Assembly (NCBI RefSeq): GCF_017313765.1
Contig: NZ_JAFLNC010000003.1
Coordinates: 248,001 to 312,000 of the forward strand
Direction of reading: 5' to 3'
DNA: 64,000 bases
Source: Sneathiella sedimenti
GTDB lineage: Bacteria; Pseudomonadota; Alphaproteobacteria; Sneathiellales; Sneathiellaceae
Position numbers and translations under genes: made by a program. Under the pieces are notes generated by a model. The model ran no database searches. It was not told the DNA's origin and saw only the letters and a program-made list of their open reading frames with translations. Below, piece by piece: positions 25,623 to 26,732 of this stretch; the stretch's first letter is position 1, and every line of letters starts with the position of its first letter.

Positions 25623-26507
25623 ATGTTTATTCAGACCTTGCCGCATGAAAATGAAGACAGGATGAAGTTTCTGCCTGGGCGTCAGGTTCTGGCGACAGGA
25701 TCCATTCTGTTTGAGGACGAAAAGGAAGGGCGCGCGCGCTCTCCCCTTGCGGCACGTCTATTTGATATCCCCGGCGTCCGCTCTGTGGAGCTTGGGGAAG
25801 ATTATGTGACAATCGTTAAACTGACAGACGACGAGCACAAGACTCTGTGGATACAGCTCAAGCCGATGGTTCTGGCCGCAATCATGGATCATTATATGAG
25901 TGGTATGCCCGTTTTGAACGGGGATCAGCAGGTAGCAAGCGCCAGCTATTCTGAAGATGATCAGAAGATCGTTGATTCCATAGTTGATCTGATCGACACA
26001 CGTGTCCAGCCGCAGCTTCGTGAGGACGGAGGTGAAGTCGCGTTTAAATCCTTTGATCCCACGGAAGGCGTTGTCGTGTTGGAGATGGACAGTTCCGGTC
26101 TGTCAACGCCCGCATTCGGCACGCAAATCAAAATCGAAAATACGCTGAAGCACTATGTCCCCGAAATTCACCGGGTGCGGTTTGAACGCATGGTCGAAGA
26201 AGAGGCCGCATCTGCGACGGATCGACCGGGCCTTCAAACTGAAGAGGCGGATCAAATCCGCGTCCTTCTAGAGACACGGATCAATCCCGCGATTGCGGCG
26301 CACGGCGGATACATCACCCTCATCGACATTAAGGACAACACCGCCTTTGTTGAAATGGCGGGTGGTTGCCAAGGGTGTGGAATGGCCGATGCGACGCTAA
26401 AGCAGGGTGTGGAAGTGGAAATCAAATCCGCCGTACCGGCAATCGAACGGGTTTTGGATGTCACTGATCATGCAGGCGGCGCAAATCCCTATTATGTGGG
26501 ATATTAA
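25623..26507 (+). CDS. NfuA-like iron-sulfur carrier with duplicated NifU domain
   Basis: This 294-residue protein has three parts: an Nfu N-terminal domain (residues 2-95, opening FIQTLPHENEDRMKFLPGR), a NifU-like domain (113-188) and a second NifU domain (208-280). The last has GGCQGCGMADATLKQG with Cys249 and Cys252, the pair that holds a 4Fe-4S cluster at a dimer interface. In the middle domain the matching cysteines are replaced, by hand alignment, by Ser157 and Leu160, although IENTLKHYVPE is kept. Usual Nfu proteins have one NifU domain of about 190 residues in all. CAGGAG precedes the ATG. A carrier role in cluster delivery is inferred. Confidence 0.9.
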   Translation: MFIQTLPHENEDRMKFLPGRQVLATGSILFEDEKEGRARSPLAARLFDIPGVRSVELGEDYVTIVKLTDDEHKTLWIQLKPMVLAAIMDHYMSGMPVLNGDQQVASASYSEDDQKIVDSIVDLIDTRVQPQLREDGGEVAFKSFDPTEGVVVLEMDSSGLSTPAFGTQIKIENTLKHYVPEIHRVRFERMVEEEAASATDRPGLQTEEADQIRVLLETRINPAIAAHGGYITLIDIKDNTAFVEMAGGCQGCGMADATLKQGVEVEIKSAVPAIERVLDVTDHAGGANPYYVGY

Positions 26508-26519
26508 GCGCCGCGACGC

Positions 26520-26732
26520 CTAGTCAACTTCTTCTATGGATTTGATAACGAAGCCGCGCTCCGCACTATATTTGCGGCGCATTTTTTCCCATGCCTGTTC
26601 GAGACTTTCCGCATAGACGTCAAAATAATGCGTTTCTGCCCAGCTATCTGAGAGGTTTTTATGGTGCTCGCCCTCCTGGAGTGCGTCAAGAACTTCCTCG
26701 TTAAAAATAGCTGCTTCAAATTTCAGCTGCAT
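26520..26732 (-). CDS. Small conserved-looking protein of unknown function
   Basis: I do not recognise this 70-residue acidic protein. It has no membrane segment or signal peptide. The sequence LKFEAAIFNEEVLDALQEGE, HYFDVYAESLEQAWEKMRRKY and a hydrophobic end GFVIKSIEEVD suggests an alpha/beta fold. It is convergent with the NfuA-like gene, with 12 bases between the stops. The ATG has only a weak CGGGA upstream. Codon use is like that of the neighbours, so I believe it is real. Confidence 0.6.
   Translation of the reverse strand: MQLKFEAAIFNEEVLDALQEGEHHKNLSDSWAETHYFDVYAESLEQAWEKMRRKYSAERGFVIKSIEEVD

Follow-up and report, generated by a model that had tools for sequence, protein, structure and literature searches.

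The window, a stretch of 64,000 nucleotides from the Sneathiella genome of a marine bacterium (closest match Sneathiella litorea, 96% identity), carries a gene for an Nfu protein in which an Nfu_N domain is followed, in order, by a NifU domain lacking cysteines and a NifU domain with a CxxC pair (Table 1). A cyclase-family gene lies upstream of it and OsmC-like and CDP-alcohol transferase-like genes lie downstream, all named by eye; the cyclase-family neighbor recurs in 23 loci and the transferase-like neighbor in 19. No Fe-S gene was recognized among the neighbors of the gene in the window. A small open frame of about 70 residues (26520-26732, minus strand) is convergent with the Nfu gene.

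Table 1. Features of the three-domain Nfu gene (window positions) and PLP-enzyme fusions found at other loci (positions within each locus).
Feature	Position	Strand	Remarks
CDS of three-domain Nfu protein, class I	25623..26507	+	ATG start, 294 aa + stop
Nfu_N domain, residues 3-94	25629..25904	+	Pfam PF08712, 68.8 bits; fold of 2ltm
Middle NifU domain without cysteines, residues 111-190	25953..26192	+	PF01106; NFU1-side tree position; pN/pS 0.18
Remodeled ex-cluster loop and start of next helix, residues 156-173	26088..26141	+	16/18 positions invariant
Pro-Gly-Leu motif (202-204) in linker between the two NifU domains	26226..26234	+	Conservation of 90% or more across an alignment of 74 three-domain proteins
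C-terminal NfuA-type NifU domain and tail, residues 209-291	26247..26495	+	Pfam, TIGR03341, tree
CQGC motif, presumed cluster ligands Cys249 and Cys252	26367..26378	+	Cysteines invariant in 74/74 aligned proteins
PLP-enzyme + dead/live NifU fusion	L116 2096-3925	-	
PLP-enzyme + dead/live NifU fusion	L117 1303-3081	+	
PLP-enzyme + dead/live NifU fusion	L160 1681-3393	+	
PLP-enzyme + dead/live NifU fusion	L161 1473-3353	+	
PLP-enzyme + dead/live NifU fusion	L162 1762-3468	+	

Against a PF01106 cut-off of 27 bits, the middle piece of the protein (residues 111-196) scanned alone is recognized as NifU with 42.1 bits (E 9.7e-11), and the C-terminal piece with 76.4 bits (E 1.9e-21). The original prediction of an Nfu_N domain with two NifU domains is borne out by these per-domain Pfam scans and by a confidently modeled middle (below), and residues 113-188, on whose identity as NifU that prediction hinged, hold up with this score and an NFU1-like fold. 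The presence of two NifU domains sets the protein apart from canonical NFU1, which has a single one, and as residues 1-248 are devoid of cysteine, it also lacks the CxxC of the NifU domain that follows Nfu_N in NFU1. The only cysteines in the protein are the intact pair foreseen for the last domain, 249 and 252, which are presumably its cluster ligands. With TIGR03341, the model of gammaproteobacterial NfuA, the whole protein scores 106.1 bits, below the curated cut-off of 269.35, and the best stretch is the C-terminal domain only, which spans positions 107-190 of the 190 in the model. A Pfam scan of the protein at E up to 1 returned no A-type carrier family, the N-terminus being Nfu_N.

An AlphaFold2 single-chain model, built from 74 family members, has a mean pLDDT of 87.7 and a pTM of 0.47. 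Residues 111-190 are modeled confidently (block means 84-97), block 251-260, after the cluster cysteines, has a pLDDT of 64, and the linkers are low (below 50 at 101-106 and 192-196, with blocks 101-110 and 191-200 at 53-58). As modeled in a single chain, the cysteine-less (dead) and cysteine-bearing (live) NifU domains have no supported fixed arrangement. In VIA-align comparisons run on Foldseek matches, in which unrelated proteins also score Z 8 to 9, residues 1-100 resemble the N-domain of human NFU1 (2ltm; Z 16.9 over 96 residues at rmsd 1.2). The middle resembles both the C-domain of human NFU1 (2m5o; Z 11.2 over 95 residues at rmsd 3.6, model range 15-194) and mouse HIRIP5 (1veh; Z 9.7 over 90 residues at rmsd 3.4), and the counterpart of the last domain is a NifU-like protein from rice (2jnv; Z 8.7 over 80 residues at rmsd 3.0). 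By sequence, the PDB relatives of the middle domain are HIRIP5 and NFU1, and those of the last domain are plastid NFU proteins and a NifU-domain protein from Staphylococcus.

In canonical alphaproteobacterial Nfu the cluster loop and what follows read approximately GxCxGCPSSTATLKxGIENMLxHYVPEV. Counted from the Met that precedes the loop to the IEN isoleucine (Met155-Ile171), the window protein has two residues fewer in this stretch. The replacement of the two cysteines by Ser157 and Leu160, as the original prediction had it, is too precise, since the loop differs in length and the alignment programs disagree: BLASTP sets Gly159 and Thr162 opposite the canonical cysteines, MAFFT a gap and Leu160, making the Ser157/Leu160 pairing only one of several and not a robust one. 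The former cluster loop has been remodeled and shortened. Among 113 middle domains, the CxGCPSS columns are gaps in 71-73% or more, and the loop is deleted in about 72%. CxxC is found in 0 of 118 middle domains (5 of which are from the PLP fusions) and any cysteine at all in 4.

The 113 middle domains come from 113 distinct intact proteins with the order Nfu_N, dead NifU, live NifU, gathered from loci by an ORF-based search and consisting of intact open frames only. So many intact frames of the same order are neither chance nor a frame artefact; together with a second copy in the genome itself they rule out an error of frame or assembly, and the C-terminal domain, for which a survey of homologs had been the proposed check, is no artefact of frame. 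When the ORFs of all loci are tallied with duplicates, 164 are three-domain proteins, 24 are ordinary Nfu_N / live NifU proteins, 7 are dead/live pairs, 34 carry a single live NifU without Nfu_N (NfuA in 30 cases), 2 are Nfu_N / dead (one contig-end copy counted twice) and 1 is Nfu_N alone; none has two live NifU domains or a live middle domain. Among the less usual frames, one of 193 residues (L115 2816-3394, plus strand) is a stand-alone dead/live pair without Nfu_N, and no NifU domain besides these two was found in its genome (G245); another (L127 2353-3435, plus strand) has Nfu_N alone fused to a DUF2189 membrane protein. The genome_contigs locus titles name Alphaproteobacteria or just Proteobacteria. 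The single exception is a Nitrospira MAG (L050), in which the protein clusters with that of an Acetobacteraceae member and may owe its place to a binning error. No description of the three-domain architecture was found in the titles and abstract openings searched; it may already be mentioned in McCarthy et al. 2019 or in the principal paper on NfuA evolution, Py et al. 2012.

Within the Alphaproteobacteria, the three-domain form is present in 33 of 387 genomes of a class sample, all with E below 1e-60, a count made by hand among listed matches that extend to far weaker ones; in a sample of 299 genomes from the phylum, the Sneathiella genome alone passes E 1e-45. It is thus a minority architecture. 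The Sneathiella genome has four NifU domains in two proteins, both of the three-domain kind, and a NifU domain search found no ordinary Nfu in it. Likewise, no ordinary Nfu was found in 30 of the 33 three-domain genomes of the class sample. The Pfam NifU search covered 41 genomes (the 33, 7 more Sneathiellaceae and G245) and found an ordinary Nfu in three (G084, G331, G391), all among the 33, so that a strict exclusion of the ordinary by the three-domain form is false. Of three genomes with the ordinary form, two (G378 and G357, not G059) have their nfu gene less than 2 kb from tsaB, and a three-domain gene near tsaB was found in none of four three-domain genomes (G000, G024, G208, G053). This difference in context favors a gene that arose at a new site, with the old one lost; conversion in place of the ancestral NFU1 gene is unsupported in the small sample of genomes checked (3 + 4). 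Elsewhere in the Sneathiella genome, contig 5 has two SUFBD-core matches with NifU_N and an A-type protein within 5.4 kb and a second NifU_N apart from these, and contig 4 has a second A-type protein.

The origin of the domains was addressed with a maximum-likelihood tree of 71 NifU domains and 80 columns, with at most 18 rows per group after thinning, drawn from 65 middle and 40 C-terminal domains that were left. The C-terminal domains fall with gammaproteobacterial NfuA (support 99/96). The middle domains fall with ordinary alphaproteobacterial NFU1, the branch splitting both from the rest having support of 87/90 in a tree that carries a warning of long-branch meeting and many open forks, the separation of the NfuA-like side being its firm part. 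A search with TIGR03341 points the same way: the model runs through its last position on the C-terminal domain of two proteins of the genome (86.0 and 82.3 bits), and the best other alphaproteobacterial match in a 249-genome search has 53.1 bits and ends at position 178. The NfuA type suggested for the last domain is borne out by the first of these scores and the tree. This match to the end of the model and the domain tree together indicate an NFU1 joined to an NfuA-type NifU domain, and on these sequence comparisons the protein appears to be a fusion rather than an internal duplication. A tandem duplication inside one Nfu gene, which the adjacency and common fold of the two domains might suggest, and which has a parallel of sorts in plastid NFU1-3, thought to be the product of two fused NFU genes (PMC3721309), is very unlikely: mean identity (up to 10 sequences per group) between middle and C-terminal domains is 24%, below the 39% between middle domains and canonical NFU1 and the 40% between C-terminal domains and NfuA, and the tree keeps the two apart with 99/96 on the NfuA side. 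The tree and the absence of cysteines thereby support the original suggestion that a domain was added to a standard Nfu whose older NifU domain lost its cluster ligands.

The three-domain family itself has an old split into two paralogs. In a midpoint-rooted protein tree of 72 of the 113 proteins, left after thinning, the side of the window protein (class I, 14 of the 72 rows) is separated from that of the second copy of the same genome (class II) with support of 96/91. Class I loops read approximately SxPxFxxxIxIENT; class II loops are mostly deleted, with a longer cysteine-less loop kept in some rows of that side (L026, L119, L128, L141). The class I set consists of 23 distinct proteins, the window protein included, more than 60% identical to it. 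One of the 14 rows (L125) was labeled class II by a text pattern, yet its loop reads as class I; the label as given needs two changes on the 72-row tree, and class I is not taken as one clean clade. Class I occurs together with a second, class II-like copy in all 24 Sneathiella genomes (in contig-end pieces in G010), the second copy having been recognized by 44-51% identity (38% over a fragment in G010) and by its loop where the locus was in hand. The same is true of the 6 other cases (L024/L040, L025/L033, L036/L064, L057/L060, L125/L126, L052/L150), of which L024 and L025 differ very little. Among the 27 genomes of the class sample from outside Sneathiella, a single three-domain protein was found in 26.

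Purifying selection acts on the dead domain. In a set of 13 class I genes from Sneathiella, pN/pS is 0.20 for Nfu_N, 0.18 for the dead domain, 0.075 for the live domain and 0.45-0.50 for the linkers; pN/pS is reported instead of dN/dS because saturation at synonymous sites affects 23 to 37 of the 78 pairs, depending on the region. The former cluster loop is the best-conserved stretch of the class I dead domain: 16 of the 18 positions of residues 156-173 do not vary among the 23 class I proteins, as against 17 of 62 in the remainder of the domain, a contrast with a Fisher p of 3.7e-6 that is optimistic, as the stretch was picked after looking at the selection data. Purifying selection and an invariant loop indicate some function for the dead domain, of whatever nature, and rule out drift or a pseudogene. 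That the domain is a decaying remnant, as loss of the ligands and an evolution faster than that of the live domain could be taken to mean, is accordingly scarcely credible: its pN/pS is close to that of the N-terminal domain, the loop pattern contradicts decay, and the dead/live pair also occurs fused to another enzyme. The 113 intact frames alone are weak evidence on this point, since broken copies fall outside an ORF-based search. A loop this constant is also what a new ligand site would look like, and it includes Asp156 and Glu172; yet a metal or cluster bound through other residues is highly improbable in view of the lack of cysteine and histidine at 156-173, the deletion of the loop in most relatives, and the description of the cysteine-less Nfu domain of plastid NFU1-3 as redox-inactive in PMC5890173 and PMC7851846.

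Candidate clients emerge from the neighbors and fusions of relatives. Of 112 distinct three-domain loci, 34, all of class II, have a radical SAM gene as the next gene downstream in the same orientation, with a CCAEP tail in 29 of the 34 matches, and a matching ATP-grasp gene is present in 39 of the 112. Many loci are short, making both counts lower bounds, and as the loci were collected by similarity to the window protein, 34/112 should not be read as a rate in the population. In L049 (4001-7517) and L067 (4001-7498) the genes follow one another as carrier, radical SAM, ATP-grasp. The radical SAM protein of L067 matches NF040546, the CUAEP/CCAEP-tail radical SAM (seleno)protein model, with 574.7 bits (cut-off 500), the next-best model being the arsinothricin enzyme ArsL (231.6 bits), and the locus continues with the SUF regulator TIGR02944 (128.8 bits, cut-off 110.65). 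The class II Nfu, radical SAM and ATP-grasp genes resemble a biosynthetic operon equipped with a cluster carrier of its own. Across the class sample, the CUAEP-type radical SAM is found at E of 1e-60 or better in 12 of 387 genomes (11 above the cut-off), all 12 among the 33 with the three-domain form, and the two genes adjoin in 8 of them; it is absent from the other 21 of the 33, Sneathiella included. Under independence the chance of this overlap would be 1.8e-14 when genomes are counted and 1.4e-7 when families are (all 6 families having the radical SAM among 14, out of a family total put at 161, a slight overcount), statistics that ignore kinship, the families being related. As a client of the window protein itself this enzyme is rejected, since its own genome and five other Sneathiella genomes have no match at E 1e-60; nor does any class I locus have a radical SAM gene directly downstream. 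BolA is a partner in cluster trafficking, and a BolA-like gene, named by eye, adjoins a class I gene at L024 (4937-5302, plus strand) and L025 (2618-3016, plus strand).

In 5 of the 41 genomes searched, a PLP enzyme of Cys/Met metabolism carries the dead/live pair as a C-terminal fusion (Table 1; PF01053 with 354.6 and 357.8 bits in the two members scanned). The result is a cystathionine gamma-synthase/lyase-like enzyme of sulfur amino acids bearing a cluster-carrier module. At L160 and L161, a Rieske-type oxygenase, recognized by eye only, lies beside the fusion. The fusions exist besides a three-domain protein in four of the 33 genomes, G186, G265, G288 and G413, and in a fifth genome, G391, that also has an ordinary Nfu, indicating that the three-domain protein is not everywhere the sole NifU-domain protein.

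The protein is probably a cluster carrier in which a silenced NFU1 serves to target a cluster domain of the NfuA type. It would have arisen when the NifU half of an NfuA-type protein was appended to a standard alphaproteobacterial NFU1 (Nfu_N + NifU). The cluster, by the Nfu literature most likely a [4Fe-4S] one bridging two subunits through Cys249 and Cys252 of each, would sit on the C-terminal domain and be loaded from the SUF scaffold, the donor we infer. The NFU1 part, its own cluster site lost, would have been retained for targeting: Nfu_N and the dead NifU domain, with its remodeled and invariant loop, may dock onto clients or a partner carrier and so direct the handover of the cluster by the C-terminal domain. 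Targeting of clients is the most likely role of this part by an analogy to known systems that is strong in build, and the persistence of the same three-part protein in many relatives suggests that the silent domain is kept for another job such as partner recognition. As the loop is gone in most middle domains, docking through it could hold only for class I.

It is also conceivable, though unlikely, that the dead domain is a structural or dimerization piece that sets the geometry of the bridging cluster without recognizing clients, pairing with itself, with the C-terminal domain or, in a class I/class II heterodimer, with its counterpart in the second paralog. Nfu clusters bridge a dimer, according to PMC8593673; purifying selection fits such a role equally, and every genome found to have class I also has a second three-domain protein. 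Co-occurrence of paralogs is, however, no proof of interaction, most non-Sneathiella genomes with a three-domain protein were found to have just one, and the single-chain model has no fixed domain packing. Returning to a targeting role, a more far-reaching version is possible, if rather doubtful: a whole silenced NFU1 reused as an address label, with an early paralog split, the class I loop rebuilt as a recognition surface, and the dead-plus-live pair coupled to particular clients. The class II genes beside the CUAEP/CCAEP-tail radical SAM and the pair fused to a PLP enzyme would then be instances of client coupling, with radical SAM and PLP enzyme as the candidate clients in relatives. If true, targeting by dead carrier domains would be a principle of cluster delivery that has evolved repeatedly and by convergence.

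Among known systems, canonical NFU1, as in humans and most sampled Alphaproteobacteria, has the same build as residues 1-190, with 39% mean identity in the NifU domain; it differs in its CxGCPSS loop, which is remodeled here and gone in most relatives, and in its single NifU domain, which is followed here by a second. Gammaproteobacterial NfuA (YhgI/GntY) shares the C-terminal NifU domain, with GGCxGC and tail. Reviews covering E. coli NfuA (PMC8593673, PMC3721309) describe a degenerate A-type domain that binds no cluster and targets NfuA to apo-proteins, both domains being required in vivo. Both proteins thus have a dead carrier domain ahead of a live NfuA-type NifU domain, the dead one being a degenerate A-type carrier in NfuA (PMC8593673) and a degenerate NFU1 in the Sneathiella protein. 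The three-domain family looks like a second, independent build of the E. coli NfuA plan with a different dead domain, and comparing the two lets one ask what a silenced carrier domain contributes. A tandem of one live and one cysteine-less NifU domain is also found in plastid NFU1-3 of plants and algae, and Arabidopsis CnfU (2z51) aligns to residues 113-280 (Z 9.7, 142 residues, rmsd 9.9). In the plastid proteins the first NifU domain is live and the second lacks cysteines, according to PMC5890173, PMC7851846 and PMC3721309, whereas the Sneathiella protein has the reverse order, dead before live.
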